A stretch of DNA of 64,000 bases from Misgurnus anguillicaudatus (lineage: Eukaryota; Chordata; Actinopteri; Cypriniformes; Cobitidae): contig NC_073348.2 of NCBI RefSeq assembly GCF_027580225.2, forward strand, positions 30,537,001 to 30,601,000, in the 5' to 3' direction. Below, one piece after another: positions 3,135-56,895 of the stretch (positions within the stretch are counted from its first letter, which is position 1; each line of letters begins with the position of its first letter). The position numbers were made by a program, and so were the translations under genes. Under the pieces are notes generated by a model, which was not told the origin of the DNA, made no database searches, and saw only the letters and a program-made list of their open reading frames with translations.

Positions 3135-3355
3135 CTATAATCCACCCTGTTTTTTTAAAGTGGTGATCCTGTTTCTCACATAATTTTTCACACCAGTCCA
3201 AGTACGTTTCTTCAAGGCTTCTGGCTCTGCTTGAATGCATCTCTCGCAGTCTTGCTTACCAGGAACTTTGCATGTCTTGATGAACTTCATCAGGTGTTTT
3301 TCAACAGCTTTTACCTCAACTTCTTCCCATTTTCTTTTTGGAGGTATTGATGAAC
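3135..3355 (-). CDS. Last coding exon: SANT/Myb-like C-terminal domain
   Basis: Preceded by the acceptor cactttatag and entered in phase 1, exactly the phase in which exon 9191-9069 ends. It encodes 73 residues with the pattern W-x3-E, AVEKHL, VPGK, DC-x2-CI, AEPEAL, W-x2-VK, and a basic end KKQGGL before TAG. The spaced Trp residues and amphipathic helices suggest a SANT/Myb-like helix-turn-helix, probably for DNA or chromatin binding. The exon is 5.7 kb from the previous one because transposons fill the intron. Assignment to this gene rests on phase, strand and my recollection that fish proteins of this recombinase family end in such a domain. Confidence 0.65.
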
Positions 3356-6300
3356 CTATAAAGTGAAAAATCATATCCTTATTACAACTAAAGTCAATGG
3401 GATTTATTTATCAATCAAATGTAGAAACAAGCGCAGATCCATGCGCAAACACAATCTTACAACACCACTCATGTGTGATTCATTAAACTTTCATGTGGCC
3501 AATTCCATCACACAAATGAATGGGTGTTGATAAATGTGGCGAATGAAAACTATAGTAATTTAAATATTAAACCCATATAAATGAAGCCTAGCCCCTAGAG
3601 AATATGACATGAGGAAACATAACCTGGCCACACAGAGGAACATCTACATAGATATTGAACTTTGACATTTCAAGTTCAAACAAAGTAGCTTGAAAAGCAA
3701 TATTCATGCAGTTGGGAGCCAGATCACTAAAAAGTAGAGCTGCAACTAACGACTATTTCTTCTGTCGACTAATCTAGCGATTATTTTTCCGATTAGTCGA
3801 CTACTCTAACAATTTTTTTTTATTAATAAAGTGTTCTTTTTTTGATTAGCTATTTAATCTGTTGGATAATCTGTTTTCTACTCTCTGTCTGATCTGACAG
3901 TCATTGGTTGTTTTATTGTATTTTAACACAACGGAATGCTATTTTCACATATTATCTGTTCTGTTGTCAGACATATAGAGCCGTTTTTCCAGACAGGGAT
4001 TAGACTAGTCCTAGACTAAAATAAATATAAGAGCTGTCCAAACTGAAAACATCTTCCACTGACATATCTTTAAATACATCAGTGCCTTTAGTTTGGCCTC
4101 AAAATGCACACAAGTAATGTTTTTAGTAAGGCATGTTTGTTTAAACTAATTATATTTCCTAATTAAACGAAGGTCTAGTCCTGGCTTAAACTAATCTCTG
4201 TCCAGGAAACCACCCCAAAGACTATTAAAATAGTGACAAAACATGACCCAATAACCTTGTGTTTAATTCAACCAGCTGTTACTTTAACTACTAAGTTACT
4301 AAAATTTTGATTTATAAACGCGACATCGCAGACAATTCGGCACAAATTTAAAAAATTGCCATTACACAGAGTTACTACAGAAGACATGCGCGGGCATAGG
4401 AGAGAGAGAGCTCGCGCACAAGCACATAGAGAACCAGTGTATGTGGGAAAACACTGCTAACCTTTCATGATAAACTTTACGCGAGATGAATGTAAACAGC
4501 GTGACGCGTCGACGCATTTTACGCATGTCGACGTATTTTCGTAGTCGACGTAATCGATGACGTCGACGCGTCGTTGCAGCACTACTAAAAAGAAATTGAT
4601 ATTTCACCAAAACGCCAACATTGTAATTTTTAGATATGTGACCGAACACGGAAAGTAGAGACACAAGTCTGGGGCAGATTCTTAATGTGTAGTATCTAAG
4701 CTTTCCAGCGATGTGTAACACATGGGAATCTGATCATATTTGGAGAAGTTGTTGCCATTTGAATGTAGGAACTCAAAAGACCTCAAAGCGGAGATATAGC
4801 CTTTTAAAGTTTGGATCATTTTCACCTCTGTTCTGCTGGGAGTGACAATAGGGCTCATTTACATCTCATTTAGCTAAGCCATACACCCTGTAAAGCCGTT
4901 TTGAGATACAGATGCTCTATCATCATATGTAGTTTTTTGTGAAAGAAGTCTGGATGAAAACAGACAAAAAATAAACAGGACTTTTTGTGTTTATCACAAG
5001 TCGCATCCAGTCTGTTTCAGACGTGTGAATCATCCAATGACCATTTTTGTCCACAAATGCCATGAAATATAGAAATATATAGTCTATTGTTTACATCAGA
5101 TTTCGAATGAAAGTCTGGTAATAGATTATAATATATAATCTGATGACCATTTACGTCGTAACACTTTATATCACTGTACTCGCTCGATCGTTCCTCCATC
5201 AGCCAATGACTTCATGGCAAATATTGATAGACAAAATACGTAGCCAATTACATAACGAATTCAACAATCATTGTGTGATTTTTTTTGTGTGTTCGACTTC
5301 ATGTGGCGCTGCAAGAACTGACAGGCGGATGACGTCAAAGTACTGCAAGAGCGAGTCGAAATTAGACTACTCCGTAAGATTTCTTGAATAGCTCGAATAG
5401 CTATGAAACGAAGACGACTCCTAACTGTGAGTATTTTTGGTAAAAACAACCATTTTAGTGAACATAGGTTGGTTTGGGCTACAGTGGGGCTCCTTCTCAA
5501 GAGGTTAAGTAGCCACGCTGAGGGCAGGGGCAATAACAAAAGAAACAAAAGAAACAAAAGCTGGCTTATCCAGTATGTAAATGCACACAGACGACGACAC
5601 CACCTACTGCATTCTAGAAACTGCGTAAAAAAAGCAGATATCAACCTCAAAATGTACCCTTTTAAATATACAAATACTGCTATATCAAACATGTAGAGGC
5701 TACTTCGTGATCTCAACAGATTCTGCAAAAAATATAAAAATGCTTTTCTATCATTAGCTCAAAAGTTGTTCTGCCGACTTGTGTCACTGGTTTCCGTGAC
5801 GGGGCACATATTACTGTTTTTAAGACTTGTACAGTCTTGTTCAAAATAATAGCAGTACAATGTGACTAACCAGAATAATCAAGGTTTTTAGTATATTTTT
5901 TTTATTGCTACGTGGCAAACAAGTTACCAGTAGGTTCAGTAGATTCTCAGAAAACAAATGAGACCCAGCATTCATGATATGCACGCTCTTGAGGCTGTGC
6001 AATTGGGCAAGTAGTTGAATTAGTTGAAGGGGGTGTGTTCAGAAAAATAGCAGTGTGGCATTCAATCACTGAGGTCATCAATTTTGTGAAGAAACAGGTG
6101 TGAATCAGGTGGCCCCTATTTAAGGATGAAGCCAACACTTGTTGAACATGCATTTGAAAGCTGAGAAAATGGTTCGTTCAAGACACTGTTCAGAAGAACA
6201 GCGTACTTTGATTAAAAAGTTGATTGGAGAGGTGAAAACCTATAAAGAGGTGCAAAAAATGATAGGCTGTTCAGCTAAAATGATCTCCAATGCCTTAAAA

Positions 6301-9300
6301 TGGAGAGCAAAACCAGAGAGACGTGGAAGAAAACGGAAGACAACCATCAAAATGGATAGAAGAATAACCAGAATGGCAAAGGCTCAGCCAATGATCACCT
6401 CCAGGATGATCAAAGACAGTCTGGAGTTACCTGTAAGTACTGTGACAGTTAGAAGACGTCTGTGTGAAGCTAATCTATTTTCAAGAATCCCCCGCAAAGT
6501 CCCTCTGTTAAAAAAAAGGCATGTGCAGAAGAGGTTACAATTTGCCAAAGAACACATCAACTGGCCTAAAGAGAAATGGAGGAAAATTTTGTGGACTGAT
6601 GAGAGTAAAATTGTTCTTTTTGGGTCCAAGGGCCACAGGCAGTTTGTGAGACGACCCCTAAACTCTGAATTCAAGCCACAGTACACAGTGAAGACAGTGA
6701 AGCATGGAGCATGATATGGGCATGTTTGTCCTACTATGGTGTTGGGCCTATTTATCGCATACCAGGGATCATGGATCAGTTTGCATATGTTAAAATACTT
6801 GAAGAGGTCATGTTGCCCTATGCTGAAGAGGACATCCCCTTGAAATAGTTGTTTCAACAAGACAATGACCCAAAACACACTAGTAAACAGGCAGAGTCTT
6901 GGTTCCAAACCAACAAAATTAATGTTATGGAGTGGCCAGCCCAATCTCCAGACCTTAATCCAATTGAGAACTTGTGGGGTGATATCAAAAATGCTGTTTC
7001 TGAAGCAAAACCAAGAAATGTGAATGAATTGTGGAATGAATCATGGAGTGGAATAACAGCTGAGAGGTGCCACAAGTTGGTTGACTCCATGCCACACAGA
7101 TGTCAAGCAGTTTTTAAAAACTGTGGTCATACAACTAAATATTAGTTTAGTGATTCACAGGATTGCTAAATCACAGAAAAAAAAAAGTTTGTACAAAATA
7201 GTTTTGAATTTGTACAGTCAAAGGTAGACACTGCTATTTTTTTGAACACACCCCTTTCAACTAATACCCCAATTGCACAGCCTTAAGAGTGTGCATATCA
7301 TGAATGCTGGGTCTTGTTTGTATTCTGAGAATCTACTGAACCTACTGGTAACTTGTTTGCCACGTAGCAATAAAAAATATACTAAAAACCTTGATTATTC
7401 TGGTTAGTCACATTGTACTGCTATTATTTTGAACAAGACTGTATATACCCAACTTACCATATTACAGCTGTATAGTAAAAACCTTTTTATAATTAAGTAT
7501 TCTGCATTGATGCATTTAAATATAACAATGTAAATAAAAATCATACTGTGTATGTGAATTTCATTGCAGGTTTTTCACATAACAGTGTAGGCAGAAGGCG
7601 GTTGCGTTTACACTTGGCATTAACATGCGACCTGTATCCGGATGTTGTCCACATACACATTGAAAAGACAAGTGTAAACGCGTCTGTGATCTGAATGTTA
7701 TCCGATCTGTGTGTCCTGATGCAGAGGTAGTCGAGGACGCATTGTGATCGGATCTCAGTGTAATGTAAACGCAATCCAGCCATCGTATCTGCATTTACAG
7801 GTCAACATCACAAAAAAACCCCGCCCACTATCATCTCCTCTCACTGACAGCTGTCAAAAATAAAGGACGTTGTGTCATGGAGCGCAGGTGAGAGACGCAT
7901 ACATTCATATTTGTGAAGCAATGGAAGCTACGCTTAAAAGTATCTTAATAAATCGATATTCAAAAGCATTTAACACTGCTGACTGTATTTAAGTTATTCA
8001 GGCATATGTTATATGTTCCTATTCATAGAGAGATTTAATTTTTAATGGCAGAATTCAGGATCGTTATAATGTTTGAGTTTCCATGGCGACATATCAACGT
8101 GAATGTTGCGCTTCTTTCTGGTCAATCGGCTGTTTCTGTCTCATTTAACACATTTTAAGTTACTTTAAAACACGTACAAACCATAACAACATTAACCAAA
8201 TACATCTATTTAGTGTTGGTTTTATGCAAGGTTACTTATATGTGTTTGTAAATTACATTACTTCTTACGCACTATGAACTGGAAATTTAGGAAATTGTTA
8301 GCTCTTTTAATTAAATCATATAAAAATTACCAGGAAACATAACTAACAACAGTTTATGGTTAAAATATAAATATACATATAAGTTCAGGCAGAGCCAAAA
8401 GCCCGTTATTAAGGCAGAATAAAACAGTGGAGTCGGTCATGTTTCACGCGGATTTTGTTGTTGATTTAAAGCATGCGGGTGAAAGTCAAGTTTAGGTAAA
8501 AACAGGATATTCATCCGCGGTGCGGACGCTATAAAGGCTTTTAAAGAGAAGGCTTTTAAAGCTAAAAAATATAACGCTTAAAATGTGAACATCACAGTTG
8601 TTGGGGTTGCTAGTTATTCTCTGCTGTTGGCTTCTCAGTAGCACTGTACAATACGGGATTGCGGTTAGCGCGAAAACCCTAAATCATGTGGCTAAGGACA
8701 GCTGTACCCATTTTGATTGACAGCTATCCACCCAGCGCGCGTCTCCCCGCACGGGATCAGGTCACACATCCAGATACAGAAGCCACATTTATGTGACAAA
8801 TGTAAACGCGCCGTGTCCTGATATACGAATGATCGGATCTGCGTGAACGGATCACCGAGATCGCATGTTAATGCAAAATGTAAACGCAGCCTTAGTGAAT
8901 AAATGACAAATCACATAATATATGTTTATCTATTTCTTCAAACTGACTGTACAACAAACTCAAATTTTGAAAAGCTCCTGTCTTGCTACTGTTGCCTATA
9001 GGTATTGTATTTAGTAATTCAGGGTTTGCCATTTCTTGCTGTTTGTGTAGTTTAAAGATTTTTTTTACCTTGATCTTTCTGGGAAGCAGATGGTTGATCA
9101 GTCTCTGCTGGTACTGGTGATGTTGTCTGAGGCAGGTCACTACAATCCTCTTCATCACTTGACATTGAATCACCTTCGGCCTCAAGTTGCTCTATAACAA
9201 TAAAAGGAATCTGTGTATCAATGTATTTTTTGCAAAAGATGATGAAAGATACAGATTTGCAAATATGTAAAGCACAGACGCGCACAAAAATCTAATTTCA

Positions 9301-12300
9301 TACATACCATTTGGGTCGATTTCAATGTCATCAAGTCTCTTTCCTTTAAAGCTGGACAGTGTTCCTTTCTCCATTGCCATTAAGACCTTACTCATTTTTG
9401 CCAGCTGCAATGTCCCCTCTGGTAACCGGTAATACTGTCTGTGGATCCTTATATCGTGACCGAGAAAATCAGCCAGTTGATCTGCTTCATTTTCATCAAG
9501 GTTGAGAATCTTTGACATGGTAGCTATGTGTTTCCTGAGCCTGGTTGAGGAAAGAGCTTCAGGATTCTTAATGCCACATTCACGAGCAGCTTACTTATGC
9601 ACTCTCCTCCTCTGTAGGCAGACATTGCACCAGATCTGGCAAACATAAAAGGATTCTCATTTGGGACACCACAAGCCTCACGTGTTTCAACAAGCAGCTT
9701 CATGGCAGAAACCAATGAAGGTTTGAGGAGGACAGGGACCTTTCTCCCTCGCTTACCACGGATCTCTACTCTGGTAAAGTGTTTACACAGCTTCCTCTCG
9801 AACTCAGAAAGACAGATGTCTATGTCTTCATGCAGCTCAGAAGAATCCCGGCTTTGAAAAGCTGACAAAAGCATCCGTGACACCTCACCTTCTCTTCGTC
9901 TATTGAACAGGATAACTTGGGAGAAAGTGACTTTGGCCAAAGCAGCATAGCTGTCTGCAGAGGGGCAGTTTTTAAGTTTATTAAGGAATTTATCCCGTTT
10001 CTTTTCTAGATGTGCGTGCAGGACTTTGACATCCTGAGTGAAAGGAATGATCTGTGGTGCATTCCACTTGGCTTCCTTTAATGTAGTTATAGCACCAGCA
10101 GAAATGTATTCATTCCACCTTGCTTGGTGTACTTTTCTGAAGTCTCGAGCACACTCAGCACGCTCATGGTCTCCATACATCATCGCATTACTTTCAACAA
10201 TGCTACAGATCTTTTTTAAAGAATGTCCAAGTTTGAGGGCTAAAGAGGGAATGCGGTAAGAGTTCTTCTCTTCGTCAAAGCCAGACACAACTTTCACAGC
10301 TGATATGACATGTTTGAAGTTTGCTGGTATCATGAAGTCCTCCATTGTTTTCAGTGGGGTTATCCTTCTTGCTTCAAGAAGAAGTCTGCCAACTTCTCTC
10401 ATTTTCTGTCGGATGTAGTCATGTTTGGTCACATCAGATCCCATCCTGTTAAACATGTGCTCTCCCAGTTGCATGATGCATCTGTCACTATGAATCACCC
10501 GTGAAACTTCGTCATAGTTCATCAGGGAAAGTACTTTCTTGAAACCTTTACTCACCTCTAAGCCAACAGGTGTTTTTAGGGCACAAAGAGATCTTACTCT
10601 TTTTCTGCCCTGAGCTTCATCATCCTTCGGTTTAAGTGGACAGTTTTTAATGTGTTTCCATAGGCTGAGCTTGTTGTAAAGGCCTTGACAGTGAATACAG
10701 TGGATAAATTCTTTGGGGTTTTTGCACTTTTTTGGAAGGTAGCAGGCAATAATCTCACCTTCCCCTTTTCTCACCACATCTGTGTTGTGAGCAAAGTTGC
10801 CCTTTTTTCTAAGAAGGTTTAACTGGACTCTTCGTTCTTTGGAACGTTTTGGGAAAGCTACAGCCTTTGCAACCTCTACTTCATTGCGATGTACAAACTC
10901 AAGGTGTCTTGCCATTTTTGCATATGGCCTAGAGCAATAAAGGCAATACTGTTTTTTGTTATATGACCTGCTCTTTTTTTGTGGTGATGGCATTGACTGA
11001 ACCAAAGTCTTTTTGTCAGATGAGGTTTCGGTCTCTTCAGTTTGGCATTTCATCCTTTTTGATGACACTGCTGTCATACATTTGGCAAATGAACTACCTG
11101 CCTCTTCAGCTTTCCTTTTTGAAAGGGGTGATTTAGTATGTCTTAAACGTTTGTTGGGTCTAGGATCACTACATTCAGACTTATTGTTTGATCCATCTGA
11201 ACTCCTTTCAGCCTTGCTTTGTCCAGAAGCACTTCCATCTGATTCATCTGAGCTGAACTGGGGTATGTAGTCAACATCACTGTAGTCCGTAACATCTGAA
11301 TCACTGTAGGCACTCCCAGAATACTAAATGAGAAAAATGTTACACTTACTTAAATCATGCAAAATTATTTCTTTAACTAAATGTTTAAAAACTTGCTTAA
11401 TGGGATAGACAACTGCCAGAATCCAACTGATTTTCAACAAGAGGAACTCATTTAAGCATATAAAGTGCATGGTTAATTACAAACCTGTCTTTTTCTTGAT
11501 TGCCTTAATGAGTGCATCTGAAAAAAGAACAAACAAAACTAATGTACATAAAATTGTATATAATAATTAAATGTAAATAATAATAATTTAAAAAATAAAA
11601 CACTTAAGAGCAAAAAACAGTTATTTCAACTAGATATATTTCAAACTGTAGCTTAGCAAATAAGGCCTTAGTAGATGGCACACTTGGCACGGTTTGATAA
11701 TCACAAACAGAAACTCTGTACAATACAACTGTATCATAAAATCTTTTTGCACCATGACATAGATGATAATAATATTAGGTCTGTGAATTCACATTAAACA
11801 GTTCTTACTAATCTCAATTACCCACCTCCATTAAAGATAGTGTCTCAGACACCTGTGATGAGGAAATCACAGGGGTGGAAGCAGCACAGGGCAAGGGTGT
11901 AGAGGGATGCACAGGAGAAGAGGACGATGATGTGGTCATCACAGATGATGAGGGCTGCACAAGTGCAGAGGACGATGATGTGGTCTTCACAGGTGATGAG
12001 GGCTGCACAAGTGCAGAGGACGATGATGTGGTCATCACAGGTGATGAGGGCTGCACAGGAGAAGAGGACGATGATGTGGTCATCACAGATGATGAGGGCT
12101 GCACAAGTGCAGAGGACGATGATGTGGTCTTCACAGGTGATGAGGGCTGCACAAGGGCAGAGGAAGATGATGTGGTCATCACAGGTGATGAGGGCTGCAC
12201 ATGAGAAGAGGACCATGATGTGGTCATCACAGATGATGAGGGCTGCACAAGTGCAGAGGAAGATGATGTGGTCTTCACAGGTGATGAGGGCTGCACAGGA

Positions 12301-15300
12301 GAAGAGGACGATGATGTGGTCTTCACAGGTGATGAGGGCTGCACAAGTGCAGAGGACGATGATGTGGTCTTCACAGGTGATGAGGGCTGCACAAGTGCAG
12401 AGGACGATGATGTGGTCATCACAGATGATGAGGGCTGCACAAGTGCAGAGGACGATGATGTGGTCTTCACAGGTGATGAGGGCTGCACAGGAGAAGAGGA
12501 CGATGATGTGGTCTTCACAGGTGATGAGGGCTGCTCTTGTGCAGAGAAAGATGATGTGGTCATCACATGTGATGAGGGCTGCACAGGAGAAGGAGAAGGG
12601 TATGAGGGCAATAAGGCTTTTACAGAGGTAGACATTGCACAGGGTGCCTAAGACGGTGCATTAAATGTGTATGCTATAATACTGTCTGTAACTTTAAAAG
12701 TATAATTGAAAAAAAGTTAAAAATAAAAGCAGCATGGAAACTGTTCAACGACTATTAACACTTTAAATAATAAAGTCTTAATTGACTGAGGTGCTAATCA
12801 AGTAATGTGATGATCATATCCAAATATTACTCACCATGAAATATTCTTGTGATGGCTCTATGGCAGTTTTTTTCGTTTTAATTTGTGCTCTGTTAAAGCG
12901 CTCATGGCAATCTTTGAGTTTCTGAGGATATATGAAAAGGTATTAAACTTAAAAGTAAAATGTACATAATGTTAAAAGCTGTGACACTCAAAGACATTAG
13001 GCAAAACCAATCAAAAATATAGAAAACAAAAAGTAAATATAAAATATTGCTTAATTTCAAGTGCTCTGGTTTAGATTAAAGGAATAGTCTACTCATTTTC
13101 AATATTAAACTATGTTATTACCTTAACTAAGAATTGTTGATACATCCCTCTATCATCTGTGTGCGTGCACGTAAGCGCTGGAGCGCGTTGCGACACTTTG
13201 ATAGCATTTAGCTTAGCCCCATTCATTCAATGGTACCAATCAGAGATAAAGTTAGAAGTGACCAAACACATCAACGTTTTTCCTATTTAAGACGAGTAGT
13301 TATACGAGCAAGTTTGGTGGTACAAAATAAAACGTAGCGCTTTTCTAAGCGGATTTAAAAGAGGAACTATATTTTATGGCGTAATAGCACTTTTGGGAGT
13401 ACTTCGACTCGGCGCAGTAACACCCTCCCTCTCCCATTATGAGAGTGAGAAGGGGAGCGGACTTTTCAGGCGAGTCGAAGTACTCCCAAAAGTGCTATTA
13501 CGCCATAAAATATAGTTCCTCTTTTAAATCCGCTTAGAAAAGCGCTACGTTTTATTTTGTACCACCAAACTTGCTCGTATAACTACTCGTTTTAAACAGG
13601 AAAAACGTTGATGTGTTTGCTCACTTCTAACTTTATCTCTGATTGGTACCATTGAATGAATGGAACGAAATGTCGCAGCACGCTCCAGCGCCCACGCGCA
13701 CGCACACAGACGACAGAGGGATGCACCAACAACTCCCAGCCAAGGCAATAACATAGCTCAACATTGAAAATGAGTAGACTATTCCTTTAAGAGCAAGCCA
13801 AATAAATTTAGTTTAGTAAACTAAATAAGGAAACCCATAAATCTGTTAGAAAAGATATAGCACATAAAGTAAGAAGGGTCTATGGGCCAGATTTACTAAC
13901 AGCTTGTGCCAGCGCAAACCATCATTTTGTTACATAACGACTGTTGTGATTTATTAAAGACTTGAATGTCTTTAAAATACAAAATCGATTGTGGGGCCAT
14001 TGTCATGTTTGAATAGAAAAGAGCTCTGCCCGAACTGCTGCTATAAAATTAGACACACACAATTTTGGAAAATATCATTATATACTGTAGCATTAAGATT
14101 TGTGCTCACAGAAATGAGTAGTTAAATGTGTTCACTAGAAGTTGCCGTCCAATACTTTTGTCCATATAGTGTAACTAGTTATCTGATGAAGTAAACTGCC
14201 TAAGATACTTTCTGCATGTATAGAATGGTTACCATTTTATTCTCTAATGTACTTGCTTTGCCTGACTGTTGTGGCTCAACTTGCTTATGTGGTTCATTGA
14301 TGTACACCTTATACAGGGCAGATGAGGAAACAGGAGGAGCCTGATGGAACTGAAAGTCAGAAAAGAAGAGTTAGGGGGTAAATTTTGTACTGTATTTGCT
14401 AAGCTTTTGTATGGTTTTGTTTTATACTGTGATGTATAAAAGACAGTGAGATGCAGTAATATAAGGTACACGTTCATCTGTCCTACAGTAACTTTAGCTG
14501 AACCTACTTTTTAAATCTGTCAGTATTCCTCTGTTTAAAAAAACAAACAAGAATACGTTTACTGAAAAAATGCACGATTTAGAAGTTGTGGCATTGTTTC
14601 ACAGAGGATTAAATGCTTGTCCAATATGTCAAAAACCTCTCAAATTGCTAGTTTCCCACATGACTGTATAGAACCCGAATATAGATGTTTTGTGTACTTA
14701 CCAATTTCTGCAAATCCAAACTGCTGACTGGGCTTTTATCACTGGATTCTGTTGATGATACCTAAATGAAAGATTTGAGAAATATGAGAACACAATCATA
14801 TGGTATCAAATCAGCATAAGAGAAAAATGTCATCATGAAATATTGTTAAAGATTCTTAGGATATACTTGACAGTACCTTAGCTCGCCAAGGCCAATCTGA
14901 ATCTCCATAACTGTAAGTGATTTCTTCTCCTGGTTGGATATCTCGTACAGCAAAAAGACACAGATGAGGTTTTTTGTTCACTTCAACAGTTCTTATTTTG
15001 CATGTAGGATTTCTGTGCTCATCATTTACAAGTCTTCCCAAGGACCCATCTTCCTTGGATGCATCCATGCTATAAATACATAAAAATACCACCAAGCATA
15101 AGAGACTGATTTGTAATCTTGTACAGCAGTTGTTTCCTTTATGCCTGTACCTCGTAAGAGTAACTTCTGTAAACATATCTTAACAACTACATGAAATCAA
15201 AATGAGTTTTTTGGGCTTTAAGGCATTTTACATCAGTGGGTTTGGTTATATGGTCTGCTCTACAAATTTTGGGGCAGATTCCTGAACAGGGCTAAAGTCT

Positions 15301-18300
15301 ATTCGCAGACTTGAATACAAGTTTGAATTGTCTGAACAGAAAACAGCTTTCACTGAGATATCTTAGAGAGCGCCTATTTCATTTCTAAAAAAAACAATAT
15401 TATTTTGTGTATTTGGTATAATATAATGTGTTCATGTGGTTTATGGTTAAAAAACACATTATTTTCCACATAAGGTTTATTTTTGTATTTCCAGATTTAA
15501 CTCTCTTCCTGAAACGCACTGATTTGAAAAGCTGTGTGCCTAATTGGTCAGCTAATCTGTATGTTGTGATTGGTCTGATTAGCTCTGTCAGCTGGAAACG
15601 TGAGACTTCTTACCATGATTGAAAGATTCAGTTACTAACAGAAGTTACAGGAGTTAACTTACAGGTTGAGTTCGAAGCAGGATGAATTATGATAATGTCG
15701 GTCTTGTCTACATCACCAATCCCAGGAAGTAAACCTTTTGCCTACAATCCGTGTGTTTGTTGTAATCCAAGAAAAGAGCTTTACGTTGGAGACGATAACT
15801 CGCGTCATGGTTTACTTTTGGGCTTGTAACTTTTGCATATTGTTAACATGTACAAATACACACTTAAACACCAGAGGACATTTAAAAACAATAGGTGCTC
15901 TTTAACATATCAGTGCCACTGTTTTTATCACAAGATGCACAGCAAATTTTTTTTGTAAAATGTCCTAATATTACTAAGCCCTAGTCCTGGATTAATCTAA
16001 ACCCTGTATGGTAAACTGCCCCTTTGTTTCTGCTTTTTTACACACAATAAAAATCATCAGCTGGGTACTGAGTGCGTCATACCAAATGTGCAGAGACGAG
16101 GATCACCAGGACCCAGGGGCCGGTTGCATAAACATAGCCGTGACATTAAGACTGCGTCTTAAGAATTATTCTGACTAACTAGCAATTAGTTAGGGCTAAT
16201 CAGTCTTATTATTTGGATTTAAATTAGACCAATCTACCTTTCTATGTAACATACTTAAAACAGTTATGATCAGTCTTGAAGAAAAAAATTCATGACTAAC
16301 TTTAAAGACTAGTCTTAAAGTTTTATGCAACCGGCCACAGGAGTTTTGGTGAACTAACCCTTAACCGCCCTATTACTTCAAGACAACTCTATACTCACCA
16401 CCAATTTTTGCCATGCCACTGAAAATCAAACAAGAATGTGTTCTCAACGTCATTGTAGAGTTCAGATCGATCAAGGCTCTCCTCTGAAGTCAGAAGTTCA
16501 CCTCTGTATTCAAGGACAAAATCACCTCTAAAAAATGCTTCAGTGGTGAAAACTCCACGTCCTAAAAAGAAAAAAATACCAGTAAGTTCTGATGTTCCTT
16601 TAAAGTTAATTATTATTTTCATGAGCTCTTATCCAAAAACAATAATAAAAATTACTAGATCTGAAGTTTTATCTGTGGTATCCAACAAATTTGGACATTG
16701 CCCTAGTTGGATCTTTCATTTTGTTGTTGTCGGCTGGATTAAAAGGAGTAAAACAATACATTTTACCTTGATAATTTGTTATATAAGAGGTCATCATACT
16801 TAAATGAACATCACAAATTTGAAAACGTATGGCTATTGAAATATAACAGTTTTTTGCACCAAGCCAGGAAAATGGTCTATTCAGGAATGTGCTGAAATAT
16901 GATGTCAGAGTAGAATTGAAACACCTCCCCAAACCAATATACAATGACCACTTTTGTAGCCCTGTCCACAGCTTTGCGTGACATGTGTGGGTCAGGGGTA
17001 AAGCAAACCATGCAGTGTCTCAACAATCAGTAAACATTAGGGGTGGCACGGTTCATGAAAAAAATCCGAACCGTTCAGTTCGGAGCGTGTGTGCGTCGCA
17101 CGGTTCATGGCATGCGCAATAGCCTCGTGCCCTGTATGTGACCTTGCCTCAGATGGCGTGTTTCCCTTTCGCGAAAGAAAAGTTGACTGTTGTGGAGAGT
17201 GAGTGCTGCAGTTTATGTTACATGTAGAAATGGCAAGTGGGAGAGAAAAGGAAGGCGGTGGAAAAAAGAGACGGATTTAAATATTACAGGTGTAAACGTT
17301 GTGTTTCTCTCTCGTCCACATATACTCTCTGCAGTATTTAAGCAGCCTCTCAGTGATAAATCTTAAAGCTACACTGAAGTTGGCAGTTTGATAAATGCAA
17401 GTTATCTTTGTGTGCTAAAAAGGCACATAAGATGGATATACACATTCTCCTTTTTTGCCAAAAAAAGAGAGGGTCCCAATAATGTGCTTAAAGTCAAATT
17501 CAGTTTGTGCATGATTACATGATATAACTTTTTTAATAATGTATCCTAAATTATGGATAATTACTACATTAATAAGATAATACATTTCTGGAGTGTTAAA
17601 AATTAAAAGTAAAAATAACAACAAGAACCGTACAGAACCGAGAACTGTGGCCATTAAACCGTGATACGAACCGAACCGAGGGTTTTGTGAACCGTGCCAC
17701 CCCTAGTAAACATGTCTTTAAAGATTGCCAAATGTAACCAAAATGACTTTTGAAAACATGTTTCCTTTTATTTTTACGTGGTGATCTGTTATAAGTACCC
17801 AACAAAGTGTTCGGTTGTGGAAGAACCGTCTATGGGAAGAACACAGACGTTGTTTAACGGAGGCTTGGAACATAACATTAGGAATGCGTGGTTAAAGTTT
17901 GTTTTTGAAGAAGTTCCAGCTCGGGTGGGGAGTGTTTGTTTACTATGTGTACCACGGATTCATTTGTAAAGAAGCCATGAGTCGGTGCTGGATTTGCAGA
18001 GAAACTGTGATTAAAAGCACCAGTAATATTGCATCTGGCAGGAATGACACAACAGTATACACAGTGAGTAATACATTTTACTTTAAGTTACTACGCGTCA
18101 CTACTGTTTAGTAAAAGATCGCTTGATATGTCCTGTTGTAACATCAGTGTCTAAACACGTATATTTTACTGTTTTAATTTACTAAAAAAATTACACTTAA
18201 CAATATGACTGTAATATAACGATAGAAATATACAAAGTTAGTGATAAGGAAGAACTTACCAGCCCTAATTTAGATTCTGATGCCTGCTTACTGTGTTGTA

Positions 18301-19213
18301 TACGGTAATTTAGGCAAGTCGCATTTGTAAGGTCCAACACTCAACAAAGCTTTTTTCTCATATAACTGTGGTATGTAACGTTATGTGTATGTAAGAGCAA
18401 CCTCACAAGCACAATAGAAATATACAAAGTTAGTGATAAGGACTTATCAGCCGTGGTTTAGATTCTGATGCGTGCTTACTTGTGTTGTTTATGGTAATTT
18501 AGTCACGTTGAGTTTATAGTTTTGTTTATACTTTACTATACGTATTGTCATTTATGGGTATCATCTTTAGCACCCAGAATCTTTTGTGGCTCAAACATAT
18601 TTGTGTTCGGCTGCTATTTTTACACATCAATGTTTTTAAAACATTTCCCCACATGTAATGACGGGGATCATAGCAGTGGGCGTTTACGTCCAGGTCTTCA
18701 CTGCGGCCCCCCCTTCAAACGAACCATTATCCAGAGAGCAACTAATCCATGTTACAAACTAACCTATTACTTATTGCCTTTGATGTTTTTGAATGGAAAA
18801 ACCACTTGAACAGTAGATATCAGACAACAGTAGTAAAACAATAAAATCGACAGATTCATTGCCCCTTTAAGTCAGCAGGATCTATCACAAGAGTCCATGT
18901 AGAGTGCACGTGACACAATTTCCATCATGCATTCACTGACGGATTTTGAAGTAGGTAGCCCAGGCGATGTGTTGCATTTTGTCGCAATGCGCATGCATCA
19001 AAAGTCTGTATGCACATACAAATAAACTATGCTTTGCAACTTACATTTGCGTACATGAAAGAAAACCGTCTATACTACAGAATTTATCTTACCTTTATAT
19101 TTGCTGATAACTTGCTCATAAAGCTCAGGCTTGTCTGTTTTGCAAGTAATGTGATGCTCAGCATCCTGTTGAGGTCTTTTTCGTTTTTTCTGCCTTGGTA
19201 TACCCAGCATCAT
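3135..19213 (-). CDS. SET domain / tyrosine recombinase fusion gene (11 coding exons)
   Basis: Model on the minus strand: 19213-19093, 16561-16399, 15069-14877, 14761-14702, 14349-14233, 12921-12835, 12647-11826, 11517-11485, 11323-9308, 9191-9069, 3355-3135. Every junction has AG/GT and the phases agree throughout once one missing base near 9590 is allowed for, giving about 1,318 residues. Order of domains: KMT5A-like SET (about 34-152), Ser/Thr/Pro repeat linker (about 248-521), two Cys/His fingers (about 659-677 and 741-760), Crypton-like tyrosine recombinase (about 900-1160), acidic stretch, SANT/Myb-like C-terminus. KMT5A enzymes mono-methylate H4K20 and tyrosine recombinases cut and rejoin DNA. 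That one nuclear protein does both is inference. The frameshift suggests a decaying copy or a sequence error. I chose the first of two adjacent ATGs, 14 bases after an acceptor. Confidence 0.75.
3735..4584. mobile_element. Non-autonomous hAT element
   Basis: The ends are tagagctgcaac and the inverted gttgcagcacta. The 8-bp word ctaaaaag flanks both sides (3727-3734, 4585-4592), the duplication length typical of hAT. The right part is rich in cgtcgacg words. An inner segment (about 3978-4217) has its own inverted ends resembling ccagacagggattagac, so a second MITE is probably nested inside. No transposase frame remains. It lies in the last intron of the SET-recombinase gene. Confidence 0.85.
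4593..5829. other. Intronic unassigned repeat-like sequence
   Basis: Between the hAT and Tc1 elements of the last intron. Open frames here (for example 5261-5728 minus and 5403-5696 plus) have no recognisable domain. The segment 5302-5370 contains the palindrome TGACGTCA and, read on the minus strand, resembles CpG-rich segments near 20.0, 21.3 and 28.3 kb, so part of it is a dispersed repeat. Confidence 0.4.
5832..7441 (+). mobile_element. Tc1/mariner transposon with IR/DR ends
   Basis: The outer ends cagtcttgttcaaaataa are perfectly inverted and bounded by TA on both sides (5830-5831, 7442-7443). The inverted repeats run about 215-225 bp. Their inner borders (6038-6057 and 7229-7250) carry a second, degenerate copy of the outer word (ttcagaaaaatagcagtgtg), the IR/DR layout known from fish Tc1-like elements in which transposase binds two sites per end. 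It encloses one broken transposase gene and sits in the last intron of the SET-recombinase gene. Confidence 0.93.
6169..7145 (+). pseudogene. Tc1-like transposase, broken by a frameshift and a stop
   Basis: The frame opens at MVRSRHCSEEQ with an N-terminal paired-like helix-turn-helix region and the basic GRKRK motif. The DDE catalytic core follows: WTDESK gives the first Asp, QQDNDPKH the second, and NPIENLW the Glu, a DD34E-like arrangement typical of Tc1. Two lesions inactivate it. The frame shifts near 6708-6711, where KHG should continue into the SM-x-WG strand, and an in-frame TAG lies at 6846-6848, where Trp is usual before LFQQDN. Intact family members are about 340 residues, close to the total here. 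The product would cut and paste the element at TA sites; this copy could move only if helped in trans. Confidence 0.9.
7595..8893. mobile_element. 1.3-kb MITE-like element with inverted ends
   Basis: The left end (aaggcggttgcgtttacac) and the inverted right end (aaggctgcgtttacatttt) continue into shared words gcattaacatgcga and tccgatctgngtgnncngat. I could not find a clear target duplication. The interior lacks a recognisable protein. It lies immediately downstream of exon 9191-9069 in the same intron. Confidence 0.65.
9069..9191 (-). CDS. Acidic linker exon of the SET-recombinase gene
   Basis: Acceptor attgttatag, donor CAAG|gtaaaa, phase 1 in and phase 1 out, 41 codons. The residues are acidic and Ser/Pro-rich (EAEGDSMSSDEEDCSDL, then SPVPAETDQPSA), typical of a flexible tether between the recombinase core and the C-terminal domain. 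Confidence comes from phase matching on both sides; no fold is expected. Confidence 0.6.
9308..11323 (-). CDS. Tyrosine recombinase (Crypton-like) exon with zinc-finger motifs
   Basis: A 2-kb exon entered after catttag and left at AATG|gtatgt. It begins with an acidic Ser/Asp-rich stretch. Two Cys/His motifs follow: C-x2-C-x9-H-x4-H (CLYC...HLEFVH) and C-x2-C-x11-H-x3-C (CIHC...HIKNC). Then comes an alpha-helical core-binding region and the catalytic domain. The visible marks of a tyrosine recombinase are RRREGEVSR (first Arg), GKRGRKVPV (probable beta-hairpin Lys), STRLRKHIAT (second Arg), FLGHDIRIHRQYYR (His and candidate Tyr). The His expected three before the second Arg is Thr here. A one-base deletion at about 9588-9592 breaks the frame between the first and second Arg; the second half resumes in the next frame and restores the exit phase. 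Crypton or Crypton-derived is my best class; DIRS-type recombinases are the alternative. Confidence 0.8.
9588..9592 (-). other. Frameshift (one base missing) in the recombinase core
   Basis: The upstream frame reads GGECISK and then runs into unrelated residues and a TAG about 22 codons on. Shifting by one base at the gcagctta stretch restores family-like sequence (ARECGIKNPEALSSTRLR). The total exon length then also gives the phase needed by the next exon. Genuine decay and an assembly error in this window cannot be told apart here. Confidence 0.75.
11485..11517 (-). CDS. 33-bp basic micro-exon of the SET-recombinase gene
   Basis: Acceptor cttttttcag and donor GACAG|gtttgt enclose 11 codons (MHSLRQSRKRQ), phase 0 on both sides. 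The basic cluster could act as part of a nuclear localisation signal. Its small size makes it the least certain exon of the model. Confidence 0.45.
11826..12647 (-). CDS. Minisatellite-encoded Ser/Thr/Pro linker exon
   Basis: Acceptor gtcttag, donor TGGAG|gtgggt, phase 0 both sides, 274 codons. Nearly all of it is fourteen 16-residue repeats of the type SSSALVQPSSPVKTTS, with ALV/SPV and VKTT/VMTT variants. Repeat length is a multiple of three, so copy-number change keeps the frame. Such low-complexity hydroxyl-rich stretches are usually disordered and heavily phosphorylated or glycosylated; here it separates the SET domain from the recombinase. Other frames on both strands are also open because the 48-bp unit lacks stops in them, and these should not be taken as genes. 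Confidence 0.7.
11895..12566. repeat. 48-bp coding minisatellite, 14 units
   Basis: Tandem 48-bp units on the plus strand of the form gatgagggctgcacaagtgc followed by agaggacgatgatgtggtct and tcacaggt. Units differ at a few positions (cacaagtgcagag or cacaggagaagag; gtcttcac or gtcatcac). The array lies inside an exon of the SET-recombinase gene. Confidence 0.95.
12835..12921 (-). CDS. Basic linker exon of the SET-recombinase gene
   Basis: Acceptor atatcctcag and donor TTCATG|gtgagt, 29 codons, phase 0 on both sides. It encodes a Lys/Arg-rich stretch (KLKDCHERFNRAQIKTKKT) that would suit nuclear import or nucleic-acid contact. No fold is recognised. The exon model rests on splice signals and phase. 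Confidence 0.55.
13080..13786. mobile_element. 707-bp palindromic TTAA MITE
   Basis: TTAA on both sides (13076-13079, 13787-13790), ends aggaatagtctactcatttt inverted exactly. The two halves are inverted copies of each other to within about 25 bp of the centre (near 13430). TTAA targeting is typical of piggyBac- and Kolobok-type transposases. No coding capacity. It sits in an intron of the SET-recombinase gene. Confidence 0.9.
13884..14040. repeat. Partial copy of the 45.83-kb element family
   Basis: gggccagatttactaacagc and the following gcgcaaaccatcattttg match the left end of the element at 45829-46694. No right end is visible, so it is a truncated copy. Confidence 0.55.
14233..14349 (-). 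CDS. Linker exon of the SET-recombinase gene
   Basis: Acceptor tgactttcag, donor AAAATG|gtaacc, 39 codons in phase 0 on both sides. It encodes a Pro/Ser-rich start (FHQAPPVSSSALYKVY) and a polar Gln/Lys-rich remainder. No domain is recognised. The donor is weaker than consensus. Confidence 0.5.
14702..14761 (-). CDS. Short Ser-rich exon after the SET domain
   Basis: Acceptor tttcatttag, donor AAATTG|gtaagt (strong), 20 codons, phase 0 on both sides. It encodes VSSTESSDKSPVSSLDLQKL, a polar linker directly following the SET domain. Confidence 0.6.
14877..15069 (-). CDS. SET domain exon 2 (catalytic C-terminal half)
   Basis: Acceptor gtatttatag, donor GCTAAG|gtactg. Entered in phase 2 so that TG from the previous exon plus C makes Cys, giving NWCMDAS, the counterpart of the CVDA strand in KMT5A. 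It continues with GRLVNDEHRNP, PHLCLFAVRDI and GEEITYSYGDSDWPW. The YSYGD strand carries the expected SET Tyr. The usual NHS motif after GRL reads NDE here, so the His that normally contacts S-adenosylmethionine is replaced by Asp. Strong SET-domain assignment; activity is uncertain. Confidence 0.85.
15271..16022. mobile_element. MITE-like element in a SET intron
   Basis: The left end ggggcagattcctgaacagg and the inverted right end ggggcagtttaccatacagg match imperfectly. They belong to the common fish type with cagggattag-like ends. No clear target duplication was found and other repeats may be nested inside. Confidence 0.5.
16118..16336. mobile_element. Short MITE, ends ggccggttgcataa
   Basis: ggccggttgcataaac at the left and tttatgcaaccggcc at the right are inverted copies. 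Internal arms carrying gactgngtctta and taagactagtc also pair. The word cagg occurs near both borders. 219 bp, non-coding, in the SET intron. Confidence 0.75.
16399..16561 (-). CDS. SET domain exon 1 (cofactor-binding half)
   Basis: Acceptor ttctttttag, donor GGTG|gtgagt. Joined to the first coding exon it reads KGRGVFTTEAFFRGDFVLEY, then RGELLTSEESLDR, and ends FQWHGKNW. This is the KMT5A pattern GKGRGV, F-x-RGDFV-x-EY-G and the FQ strand before C-x-DA. Phase 1 in, phase 2 out. In KMT5A this half forms the SAM pocket entrance and substrate groove. Confidence 0.85.
17038..17705. mobile_element. Non-autonomous hAT element, ends taggggtggcacgg
   Basis: taggggtggcacggttca and its inverted copy tgaaccgtgccacccctA bound 668 bp. 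The 8-bp word gtaaacat flanks both ends (17030-17037, 17706-17713). Internal sub-repeats gaaccg recur near both ends. No transposase frame. It lies between the first coding exon and SET exon 1. Confidence 0.9.
17714..19092. other. Intron sequence with a local duplication
   Basis: No exon recognised. A direct duplication is visible: 18223-18320 and 18413-18510 share gaaatatacaaagttagtga, tttagattctgatg and tacggtaattta-like words about 190 bp apart. The rest is unassigned. Confidence 0.5.
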
Positions 19214-19227
19214 GGCGACTGCAGTGA
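19093..19227 (-). CDS. First coding exon of the SET-recombinase gene
   Basis: Acceptor ttattttcag at 19228-19229, 14 bases of leader, then ATGATG (start taken at 19213). It encodes MMLGIPRQKKRKRPQQ, a basic cluster that resembles a nuclear localisation signal, then a short helix (PELYEQVISKYK) and leaves in phase 1 at AAAG|gtaagat. The joined codon gives the Gly of KGRGV in the SET domain, which is what fixes this exon. Confidence 0.75.
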
Positions 19228-19375
19228 CTGAAAATAATTAAATTAATCAATCGATTAATCAACCATAATATTAAGATTGCTAAAATTGTTTACCCAAACA
19301 GCCAACAAATGGTATAACATATGTATCTAACTTATGTATATGCATGTATACTTTTGTAAATATACATATAGCTTA

Positions 19376-19412
19376 GATATACACACACACACATACATAC
19401 ATACATACACAA
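19376..19412. repeat. Microsatellite (CA)n/(CATA)n
   Basis: acacacacacac followed by acatacatacatacatac. Simple-sequence repeat in the first intron. Confidence 0.9.
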
Positions 19413-19811
19413 CTGTAGTTAACTTAGATATACATACACAACTTAAAATCTTTAAAGATATCTGTGGCTATTCGTGCCACTGTGCATGATAAGAAAATCG
19501 CATGATTGAAATTTAGATTAAACAATAAGAATTAATTACTAATTACCCAATCTATTACTGCTATTTCACATAATTTTACTAAGCACTTAGTCGTTTATGG
19601 ACAACATTAATAGATCAGTAAAGTAAGTTAAGTTACTCTGAAACCGAATGTTTGTTTACTGACCAATGCCAATATCATAGGCTACTCAGGAAGATAATAT
19701 TTTTGACCACAAACCGTCAAATAAGATAAAATATTTCACAAATCATATGTTAATCCTGCTTATCTTTCATATTTTGCAAAAATATGTTATTATACATAGG
19801 ACTGAACTCAC

Positions 19812-20080
19812 CTTTCCTCCTATAATGAGCGCGTGTAGTCTGCTTCGCGGGAAATTGGTGCTAACAGCGGTGATGTCATTATCACGTGTCTGCATTTCCA
19901 GGGAAACGAATCCACTGCTGCTGACTTGCGTAGTAAAAGTGTCGTTGATAGGAAGGCCGAAAGGATGTCACGTTGAAATATCGCGTGAGCGATTCGAGCA
20001 CGTATTGATAAAGTTTGATCTCGCGGTACTGTGATGTCATATCTTGTTCGATCTGCGCAGCGCTGTATGAACACAGCTTA
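19812..20080 (-). other. Probable non-coding first exon of the SET-recombinase gene
   Basis: Reading on the minus strand, GGAAAG|gtgagttcag at 19812 is a near-consensus donor that could join the acceptor at 19228-19229. The upstream 270 bases are CpG-richer than the surroundings. No TATA box is visible, so the 5' limit is arbitrary. Confidence 0.5.
19844..20039 (-). promoter_or_regulatory. E2F, E-box and CRE-like site cluster
   Basis: TTTCCCGCGAA (minus, 19844-19854) matches the E2F consensus. CACGTG lies at 19883-19888. TGATGTCA occurs twice (19871-19878 and 20032-20039). The spacing around the putative first exon suggests a cell-cycle- or CREB/ATF-responsive TATA-less promoter, which is inference from motifs only. 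Confidence 0.4.
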
Positions 20081-22262: not shown

Positions 22263-22533
22263 TCTAACACATATAACAAATAATTAACTGCACTTTAAGC
22301 TTTCGTAATATTTAAAATAAAAAAATAATATAGTATCACAACAACTATGAACTTTATGTTGTTCAGGAGTAACATGGGGATGTAATAATGTCTGCGATTA
22401 ATGGATTAATTCTATAACATGTAAAATGGGAACATGAAAGCATTAAAAGCATTTTATGTAAACACCTTAATTTGAATACTGTATTATTTAGAATAAGGTC
22501 AGTAATTAGATTACTACTGTCCATGTAAACATA

Positions 22534-25500
22534 ATCACTGGCTGACCCTGCTAACTTTACTTCAGTGGACTGCACCTTTTAAATTAAATGATAAAGTTAT
22601 CTAAACAAACAGCTTATATGACTTTATTTCTGAATGAGAATTGTATATGTGTTGTAAAGTCTGATGTGCTACTGTGATGTCGGGGGAAGGGCGTTTAGAC
22701 ATGTGAGGCCTGAAATCACTGACTGACAAACTGCTAACTTTACTTCAGTGGACTGCACCTTTTAAATTAAATGATAAAGTTCTCTAACAAACAGCTTATA
22801 TGACTTTATTTCTGAATGAGAATTGTATATGTGTTGTAAAGTCTGATGTGCTACTGTGATGTCGGGGGAAGGGCGCTTAGACATGTGAGGCCTGAAATCA
22901 CTGACTGACAAACTGCTAACTTTACTTCAGTGGACTGCACCTTTTAAATTAAATGATAAAGTTCTCTAACAAACAGCTTATATGACTTTATTTCTGAATG
23001 AGAATTGTATATGTGTTGTAAAGTCTGATGTGCTACTGTGATGTCGGGGGAAGGGCGCTTAGACATGTGAGGCCTAAAATCACTGACTGGCAAACTGCTA
23101 ACTTTACTTCAGAGGACTGCACCTTTTAAATTAAATAATAAAGTTCTCTAAACAAACAGCTTATATGACTTTATTTCTGAATGAGAATTGTATATGTGTT
23201 GTAAAGTCTGATGTGCTACTGTGATGTCGGGGGAAGGGCGTTTAGACATGTGAGGCCTGAAATCACTGACTGACAAACTGCTAACTTTACTTCAGTGGAC
23301 TGCACCTTTTAAATTAAATGATACAGTTCTCTAAACAAACAGCTTATATGACTTTATTTCTGAATGAGAATTGTATATGTGTTGTAAAGTCTGATGTGCT
23401 ACTGTGATGTCGGGGGAAGGGCGTTTAGACATGTGAGGCCTGAAATCACTGACTGACAAACTGCTAACTTTACTTCAGTGGACTGCACCTTTTAAATTAA
23501 ATGATCAAGTTCTCTAACAAACAGCTTATATGACTTTATTTCTGAATGAGAATTGTATATGTGTTGTAAAGTCTGATGTGCTACTGTGATGTCGGGGGAA
23601 GGGCGCTTAGACATGTGAGGCCTGAATCACTGACTGACAAACTGCTAACTTTACTTCAGAGGACTGCACCTTTTAAATTAAATGATAAAGTTCTCTAAAC
23701 AAACAGCTTATATGACTTTATTTCTGAATGAGAATTGTATATGTGTTGTAAAGTCTGATGTGCTACTGTGATGTCAGGGGAAGGGCATTTAGACATGTGA
23801 GGCCTGAAATCACTGACTGACAAACTGCTAACTTTACTTCAGTGGACTGCACCTTTTAAATTAAATGATAAAGTTCTCTAAACAAACAGCTTATATGACT
23901 TTATTTCTGAATGAGAATTGTATTGTAAAGTCTGATGTGCTACTGTGATGTCGGGGGAAGGGCGTTTAGACATGTGAGGCCTAAAATCACTGACTGACAA
24001 ACTACTAACTTTACTTCAGAGGACTGCACCTTTTAAATTAAATGATACAGTTCTCTAAACAAACAGCTTATATGACTTTATTTCTGAATGAGAATTGTAT
24101 ATGTGTTGTAAAGTCTGATGTGCTACTGTGATGTCGGGGGAAGGGCGCTTGGACATGTGAGGCCTGAAATCACTGACTGACAAACTGCTAACTTTACTTC
24201 AGTGGACTGCACCTTTTAAATTAAATGATAAAGTTCTCTAAACAAACAGCTTATGACTTTATTTCTGAATGAGAATTGTATTGTAATGTCTGATGTGCTA
24301 CTGTGATGTCGGGGGAAGGGCGTGTCGACATGTGAGGCCTAAAGTCACTGACTGACAAACTACTAACTTTACTTCAGAGGACTGCACCTTTTAAATTAAA
24401 TGATACAGTTCTCTAAACAAACAGCTTATATGACTTTATTTCTGAATGAGAATTGTATATGTGTTGTAAAGTCTGATGTGCTACTGTGATGTCGGGGGAA
24501 GGGCGTTTAGACATGTGAGGCCTAAAATCACTGACTGGCAAACTGCTAACTTTACTTCAGAGGACTGCACCTTTTAAATTAAATGATACAGTTCTCCAAA
24601 CAAACAGCTTATATGACTTTATTTCTGAATGAGAATTGTATATGTGTTGTAAAGTCTGATGTGCTACTGTGATGTCGGGGGAAGGGCGCTTAGACATGTG
24701 AGGCCTGAAATCACTGACTGACAAACTGCTAACTTTACTTCAGAGGACTGCACCTTTTAAATTAAATGATACAGTTCTCTAACAAACAGCTTATATGACT
24801 TTATTTCTGAATGAGAATTGTATATGTGTTGTAAAGTCTGATGTGCTACTGTGATGTCGGGGGAAGGGCGTTTAGACATGTGAGGCCTGAAATCACTGAC
24901 TGACAAACTGCTAACTTTACTTCAGTGGACTGCACCTTTTAAATTAAATGATACAGTTCTCTAACAAACAGCTTATATGACTTTATTTCTGAATGAGAAT
25001 TGTATATGTGTTGTAAAGTCTGATGTGCTACTGTGATGTCGGGGGAAGGGCGTTTAGACATGTGAGGCCTGAAATCACTGACTGACAAACTGCTAACTTT
25101 ACTTCAGTGGACTGCACCTTTTAAATTAAATGATAAAGTTCTCTAAACAAACAGCTCATATGACTTTATTTCTGAAGGAGAATTGTATATGTGTTGTAAA
25201 GTCTGATGTGCTACTGTGATGTCGGGGGAAGGGCGTTTAGACATGTGAGGCCTGAAATCACTGACTGACAAACTGCTAACTTTACTTCAGTGGACTGCAC
25301 CTTTTAAATTAAATGATAAAGTTCTCTAAACAAACAGCTTATGACTTTATTTCTGAATGAGAATTGTATTGTAAAGTCTGATGTGCTACTGTGATGTCGG
25401 GGGAAGGGTGCTCAGACATGTGAGGCCTGAAATCACTGACTGACAAACTGCTAACTTTACTTCAGAGGACTGCACCTTTTAAATTAAATTATACAGTTCT

Positions 25501-56063: not shown

Positions 56064-56895
56064 TCAAGCTAATCTGATGATTTTCTGAACATCCCATATA
56101 ATAGCCACGAAAACACCAACAAGCAAGATGCGTTTGAGCACATATATCAGAGTGACTGTACCGAGCGTCATGTCTTCCTCCACAAGGGGGTGCTGCTGTG
56201 GGCAGTGCACTACTTTCCCTCTGGCTGCTCCCAACGCAGTCATGAGGTCTACAAGATTAAGCTTGCCCTCCTCTCTGGCCTCCCTAATCTCCTCCTCGAG
56301 CTCTTCCACAGCCTCCGCCGCCTCTTCAGCCTGCTCCTCCGTCATCAAGCGCTTTCCGGCCTTCACTCGAGGAGGCGCGAGGGAACAGACGGCCCTCAGG
56401 CGCCCGTACGAACGCAGTTGTGCTACGTTGGCGCGTAGGAAGAGCAGCAGCACGTTCAGGTCATTAAGCGGGCAGCCCAGTTTCTGCCCGCTGATGAGGC
56501 CTAACGCAGGCAGCACCTCGTAAAGAGAGAGGAAGGTCGTGTCCCAACAGAACAATCGCAGTAGGCTAAAGAGAACAATAGGGCCCAGCAGCACATAGAC
56601 GGCACCGTTAGCCACGCTAATGACCTGGAACACAAGCAGGCCAGTCATTTTACACTGAACGAGCTCAGGCACCCAGGGCTGGTCACGCAGGAGCCCGGTG
56701 CGTACGTAACAGCTGAATTCATCTTGCAGGAACGCGGAGAGGTGGAAGTAGACCAAGTACAGGCACGATGCAGACATGAAGGTCAGCAGAAGGAAACTTC
56801 GCAAGAAAAGCATGCTGACCAGGAAATAGGAGCCGTGCTTGCACTGCATGTATCTCTCCAGCAGGGGGTACTCAAAGTATCGCATGCGTTTGGCT
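56064..56895 (-). CDS. panx3: panx3 exon 4 (TM3, TM4, C-terminus)
   Basis: Acceptor gtctctttag; phase 2 entry gives R-A-K-R before MRYFEYPLLERY. It holds the second extracellular loop (EFSCY ... VQCKM), TM4 (LLVFQVISVANGAVYVLL), an EE-rich helix and the C-terminal VTLIYVLKRILLVGVFVAII segment before TGA. Confidence 0.95.

Follow-up and report, generated by a model that had tools for sequence, protein, structure and literature searches.

In a 64,000-nucleotide stretch of the genome of the loach Misgurnus anguillicaudatus (contig NC_073348.2, positions 30,537,001 to 30,601,000; hereafter the window), a minus-strand gene joins a SET domain of the KMT5A type to a tyrosine recombinase (YR). With a probability of roughly two in three, this locus is one frameshifted copy of a family of Crypton-like YR DNA transposons with a captured KMT5A/SET8-type SET domain. 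The basis for this reading is the anatomy of the gene, the predicted folds of its product, its catalytic residues, the agreement between SET and YR distances, the presence of near-identical loci and a lineage in which degraded recombinase arginines are found together with a SET domain.

Three homologue searches, which reached relatives within but not outside the vertebrates, gave 742, 807 and 410 matches, of which the best 120 each were listed. In the first search, a Pfam SET domain was present in 110 of the best 120 of 742 matches. Among 279 proteins collected from these best-listed matches, 230 had both domains and 49 the YR only, a proportion to be read knowing that long queries favour fused proteins and that all relatives are predicted proteins. 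A sequence-only reading of the window had proposed a SET-recombinase chimera, and the recovery of fish homologues with both domains by the joined protein indicated that the joining is real and general across fishes. From the 279 proteins we chose 124 by hand, dropping isoforms and near-duplicates, and 114 of these carry both domains.

Structure of the gene and of its product

In the gene, which runs from 19895 to 3135, a 5' exon (19895-19812) is followed by eleven that are coding (19227-3135). Its exon joints have GT/AG sites throughout, with compatible phases in the coding part. The encoded order is a KMT5A-like SET domain (exons 2-4), a linker with 16-amino-acid repeats (exons 5-9), an acidic stretch, two zinc fingers and the YR (all in exon 10), and a further linker leading to a homeodomain-like end (exons 11-12). 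The repeats of exon 8 form a 48-bp array of about fourteen copies at 11902-12585, and an AATAAA lies a few bases 3' of the stop in exon 12. Translation of the window copy would begin in exon 2, since the 5' exon, as judged by eye, runs into a stop there.

We compared this exon chain with a set of 28 predicted loach proteins (26 from Misgurnus, isoforms included, and 2 from Paramisgurnus). When the spliced protein P0001, from the intact loach locus LOC129433905, was mapped onto the window exons by tblastn, identity was 90.9-100% per piece, with gaps at the low-complexity repeat exon 8 and the 11-amino-acid exon 9, and with exon 11 covered in part only. Peptides spanning the junctions were present in 22 of the 28 proteins for exons 2/3 and 3/4, 26 for exons 4/5 and 5/6, 24 for exons 6/7, 11 for exons 8/9 and 9/10, 26 for exons 10/11 and 22 for exons 11/12. 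This joined gene structure is far beyond chance. Repeat exon 8 starts with PSS in 27/28 models and an acceptor at 12647 fits none of the 28; judged from these models, the acceptor most simply lies within the repeat, at 12578 in the window copy. Exon 9 was used in 11/28 models, and exon 8 was joined straight to exon 10 in the other 17; on this evidence exon 9 is a cassette, and the junction 11485-11826 is hence optional. The eleven exons with compatible splice sites proposed from the sequence alone thus largely stand, as the junctions exist, the phases fit and the models agree; however, the 5' exon leads into a stop in this copy, exon 10 is not one open frame, and the acceptor at 12647 is to be abandoned. 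Of the three joints that the same reading had singled out, 14877-14702 (exons 4/5) and 9069-3355 (exons 11/12) were borne out by the peptide counts given above, and 11485-11826 was found but is skipped in most models.

The SET domain of the window matched Pfam SET at 1.5e-21 and KMT5A at 3e-25. The closest solved SET domain was that of KMT5A, both by sequence and by fold, in agreement with the KMT5A-like assignment made earlier. The family also resembles this histone H4K20 methyltransferase in its active site, where, of 234 SET stretches, 221 retain the tyrosine matching SET8 Y245, 225 that matching Y334 and 232 that matching Y336. It differs from KMT5A/SET8 in the fusion to a recombinase, in its multiple copies and in the change of the NH motif of the S-adenosylmethionine pocket to ND (63 of 64 filled alignment rows; D in 227 of 234 SET stretches).

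For the recombinase, structure prediction pointed to a YR catalytic-domain fold like those of XerH, XerD and Cre. The full catalytic set of R, K, R, H and Y is present in 98 of the 114 chosen fusions, and is split over two frames in the window copy. The predicted fold and this residue set together uphold the earlier assignment of a tyrosine recombinase domain. By sequence, the window YR had no YR family match in Pfam or PDB, and among 15 relatives scanned only P0215 and P0221 matched the Pfam family Phage_integrase. In 68 of 69 rows a Thr takes the place of the first His of the HxxR box, a position that is variable in YRs. The likeness to the bacterial and phage recombinases XerH, XerD and Cre thus lies in the catalytic-domain fold and the R-K-R-H-Y set, whereas the protein encoded here has in addition zinc fingers and a SET domain on the N-terminal side and a homeodomain-like C-terminal extension. 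The last of these had been described as SANT-like; the domain is present, but we call it homeodomain/Myb-like.

Exon 10 of the window copy is read in two frames: a 599-amino-acid open reading frame stops at 9524, and the remainder of the recombinase together with exons 11-12 resumes in another frame from 9590. Intact copies read open straight across this place. Because the frameshift at about 9590 falls between YR catalytic motifs (the lysine motif and box II), the window copy is probably dead. It differs from the nearest annotated copy (LOC129433905) at 1/247, 7/577 and 1/208 residues in the three pieces compared, and is probably a recent copy. An assembly error is a possible cause of the broken frame.

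Distribution, copies and history of the family

Fishes of 65 genera and a single frog, Ranitomeya variabilis, account for the 114 chosen fusions, and the named holders are ray-finned fishes and this frog. The Ranitomeya variabilis cluster lies on two contigs, the longest of 691 Mb. For 63 proteins (six of the first 69 were left out for too little SET), the SET and YR distance matrices agree, with a Mantel r of 0.83 (0 of 2000 permutations), although shared species history adds to r. As the two sets of distances correlate, the fusion seems to be old and to have been passed on as one unit. The linker of an osteoglossomorph and a piranha is 0.64 identical over 340 residues, versus 0.61 between Misgurnus and Chanodichthys, both Cypriniformes. 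Formal tests of horizontal transfer had a mixed outcome, and these comparisons only partly support horizontal transfer of the family. Viral contigs scanned with patterns from close relatives gave no match.

Among the best 120 of 742 matches, nine RefSeq loci of Misgurnus anguillicaudatus encode the fusion at 98-99% identity. Across the 537 residues compared, eight loach loci with comparable YR stretches have 0-8 differences (mean 3.7); among five shad loci the range is 0-27 residues. Many near-identical copies, compared at the protein level only, thus occupy separate loci on several contigs in both loach and shad. Misgurnus also holds at least three deep lineages of the family. Some copies carry the names of host-gene isoforms, for example of NCK2a and PAK1, which suggests insertion in or near those genes. 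Copying was probably at the DNA level, given the introns of the window copy and the isoforms at several other loci that either include or lack exon 9.

A second large clade, to which other loach copies belong, is marked by an additional C1-like zinc finger located between SET and YR (37 of the 124 chosen rows, all within P0177-P0263). Of 7 proteins scanned, 5 had a match of this finger to PF00130, at E 0.001-0.012 and hence under the cut-off. P0133 from Polypterus has decayed SET and YR motifs and is a probable fossil copy in a basal ray-finned fish. Two fused proteins, P0130 from Epinephelus and P0046 from Acanthochromis, have an added THAP or MamL-1 match and may be gene-model mergers.

A percomorph clade of 16 rows has a degraded recombinase. 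It has a Shimodaira-Hasegawa-like approximate likelihood ratio support of 100 in a quick tree without bootstrap, with long branches and an unsure internal order, and comprises Anabas, Anableps, Mugil, Stegastes, Betta, Labrus, Acanthochromis, Amphiprion percula, Thalassophryne, Chelmon (likewise degraded, and placed inside the clade by the tree) and four further sequences. YR box I is degraded in 16/16 units and 14 of the 15 units with data lack the box II Arg, while the Lys is kept in 8/16, the LGH His in 9/15 and the tyrosine in 15/15. The SET domain remains in ten named proteins with its motifs mostly kept, and in Anabas and Anableps the order SET-YR-SET-YR occurs within one protein. All five changes of the residue matching Y334 to F (P0164, P0165, P0167, P0168 and P0173) are in this clade; solved structures of the matching SET8 Y334 mutant are filed under multiple lysine methylation. 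At matched SET identity, the YR was not clearly faster in the degraded clade (YR mean 0.515 vs 0.532). Since the arginine boxes are degraded and the SET domain persists, this clade is a probable case of domestication. As in SETMAR, this is what would be expected if a transposon protein had been retained for the sake of its SET and DNA-binding parts.

Feature coordinates and surroundings in the window

The coordinates of the exons and motifs are given in Table 1.

Table 1. Positions of the exons and protein motifs of the SET-recombinase gene in the window
Feature	Position	Strand	Remarks
Exon 1 (5')	19812..19895	-	Coding in several loach loci; here a stop when joined to exon 2
Exon 2	19093..19227	-	Earliest usable ATG at 19213
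Exon 3	16399..16561	-	SET domain, first half
Exon 4	14877..15069	-	SET domain, second half (RLVNDE, TYSYG)
Exon 5	14702..14761	-	Linker
Exon 6	14233..14349	-	Linker
Exon 7	12835..12921	-	Linker
Exon 8	11826..12647	-	Ser/Thr-rich linker with 16-amino-acid repeats; start in loach models (27/28) most simply 12578 here
Exon 9	11485..11517	-	Cassette exon of 33 nt, 11 amino acids
Exon 10	9308..11323	-	Acidic region, two zinc fingers, tyrosine recombinase; frameshift inside
Zinc finger 1	10889..10945	-	C-x2-C-x9-H-x4-H; four ligands invariant in 45 aligned proteins
Zinc finger 2	10640..10699	-	C-x2-C-x11-H-x3-C; four ligands invariant in 45 aligned proteins
YR box I, first catalytic Arg (LFNRRREGE)	9884..9910	-	
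YR beta-hairpin Lys (IRGKRGRK)	9740..9763	-	
Frameshift place	9590..9593	-	Between GGECIS and AARECG
YR box II, second catalytic Arg (STRLRKH)	9528..9548	-	Shifted frame
YR LGH histidine and nucleophile tyrosine (FLGHDIRIHRQYY)	9429..9467	-	Shifted frame
Exon 11	9069..9191	-	Linker
Exon 12	3135..3355	-	Homeodomain/Myb-like C-terminal domain (3338-3150) and stop

Several other features lie in or near the gene. The last intron holds a Tc1/mariner-like element (5830-7443) with terminal inverted repeats and two transposase fragments (HTH_Tnp_Tc3_2 and DDE_3), and the intron between exons 6 and 7 holds a long palindrome (13076-13790) with 218-nt arms at 93%, 9 nt apart. Just downstream of the 3' end of the gene is a 2.3-kb fold-back (365-2640; arms of about 900 nt, 92% alike overall), which may be a separate element or may be situated close to an element border. 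Upstream, at 22533-27402, a 183-bp satellite forms two arrays of about 18 and 4.7 copies. With 69 family proteins as queries, no second family match was found within the window at E 1e-6. Exons of a Pannexin-like host gene were recognised by eye on the minus strand at 56064-57610 (Innexin Pfam 0.0022, below the cut-off); the copy therefore probably sits in ordinary host DNA.

Proposed mechanism, alternatives and significance

In the mechanism that we propose, the zinc fingers and the C-terminal helix-turn-helix would recognise the element ends or target DNA, and the YR would cut and rejoin DNA through its tyrosine, with excision, probably as a circle, followed by integration. The N-terminal SET domain would engage nucleosomes, either methylating a histone near the element or steering or tethering integration to a chromatin state, and the repeat linker would let the SET and YR halves work apart. 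The inferred parts are that the element is mobile, that it is copied at the DNA level, that its intermediate is circular, and whatever role the SET domain plays.

The Crypton-like nature of the element, also proposed by the sequence-only reading, is supported in part. Passages of Kojima and Jurka (2011; PMC3212892) describe Cryptons in medaka, fossil copies in further vertebrates and genes that derive from Crypton YRs by domestication, and one gives the catalytic residues as R-H-R-Y with the His meant left unspecified. According to a reference title in PMC8869645, the target-specific lineage CryptonV was originally described from cnidarians. The fusion family resembles Cryptons, as described there, in using a YR as its recombinase and in being multi-copy, and the scanned fusion proteins contain no DDE transposase or reverse transcriptase Pfam family. 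It has R, R, Y and the LGH His of the catalytic set; however, the HxxR His is Thr. The scanned proteins had no match to Crypton-derived Pfam families, Crypton sequences themselves not being compared. One point slightly lowers our confidence in the transposon reading: the junction peptides are no proof of introns in the other copies. Because those proteins are already spliced, the only hint of introns left there comes from the isoforms that differ in exon 9.

A host gene family is the alternative that needs most consideration. The family would then go back to a single joining of a SET domain with an ancient YR, would now be expanding by ordinary tandem or segmental duplication and would have a role in chromatin or transcription, with no mobility. 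A multi-exon gene with a cassette exon, the agreement of SET and YR distances, and a percomorph clade that lacks intact YR arginine boxes yet has the SET domain are all as a host gene would show. Several findings speak against it, and we regard the host-gene explanation as unlikely: loach and shad have near-identical copies spread over several contigs, single genomes contain more than one deep lineage, most of the chosen fusions have the complete set of five YR residues, and the patchy presence extends to a frog. Much less probable still is an artefact in which prediction programs merged two adjacent genes. Every relative is indeed a predicted protein and some bear the names NCK2a and PAK1, but both domains recur across the collected proteins (with long queries favouring fused ones), the records carry several naming styles, the distance matrices agree and many loach models have junction peptides in common. 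We consider it equally improbable that the element is a YR retrotransposon of the DIRS/Ngaro type. Such elements use the same recombinase superfamily, but no reverse-transcriptase-like frame was seen by eye among the listed open reading frames, with no systematic scan made, and the transposon frames put to Pfam were the Tc1/mariner pieces of the last intron.

Within the reading as a SET-carrying Crypton-like transposon, the SET domain may be no enzyme at all and serve as a nucleosome-binding module that only targets the recombinase. The near-universal change of H to D in the NH motif and the retention of the SET fold are consistent with this variant, but the conservation of the three SET8 tyrosines speaks for an enzyme; we lean against the variant while taking it as a serious candidate.

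Among the closest known systems is SETMAR (Metnase). Both join a SET domain to a DNA transposition enzyme, and the degraded percomorph YR parallels the inactive transposase of SETMAR. They differ in that SETMAR combines a SET gene with a mariner (DDE) transposase in primates, whereas the family described here, which among the chosen rows covers 65 genera of fishes and one of frogs, combines a KMT5A-like SET domain with a YR. The terms 'SET domain' and 'methyltransferase' have 0 occurrences in the main text of PMC3212892, and no description of a SET-YR fusion was found in literature titles and the starts of abstracts, with most subscription journals and Repbase Reports outside the search. A prior description, above all under CryptonV, is possible. 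The family would belong to a known kind, the YR transposon, and include a probable domesticated branch. More tentatively, and at slightly less than even odds, it may be an undescribed and still partly active class of SET8-carrying YR transposons of ray-finned fishes that crossed between distant fishes and into a frog and was tamed once in percomorphs. The element, and not the host, would then have brought the chromatin enzyme, the reverse of SETMAR.

If the reading as a SET-carrying transposon is correct, the family would be, as far as the literature searched shows, the first described transposon family with a histone-methyltransferase-type domain in its recombinase protein, spread over many ray-finned fishes. 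It would open the direct question of whether transposons use a chromatin mark, by writing or by reading it, in selecting or silencing their sites, and the percomorph lineage with a degraded recombinase would offer a natural comparison for the conversion of such a protein into a host chromatin factor.
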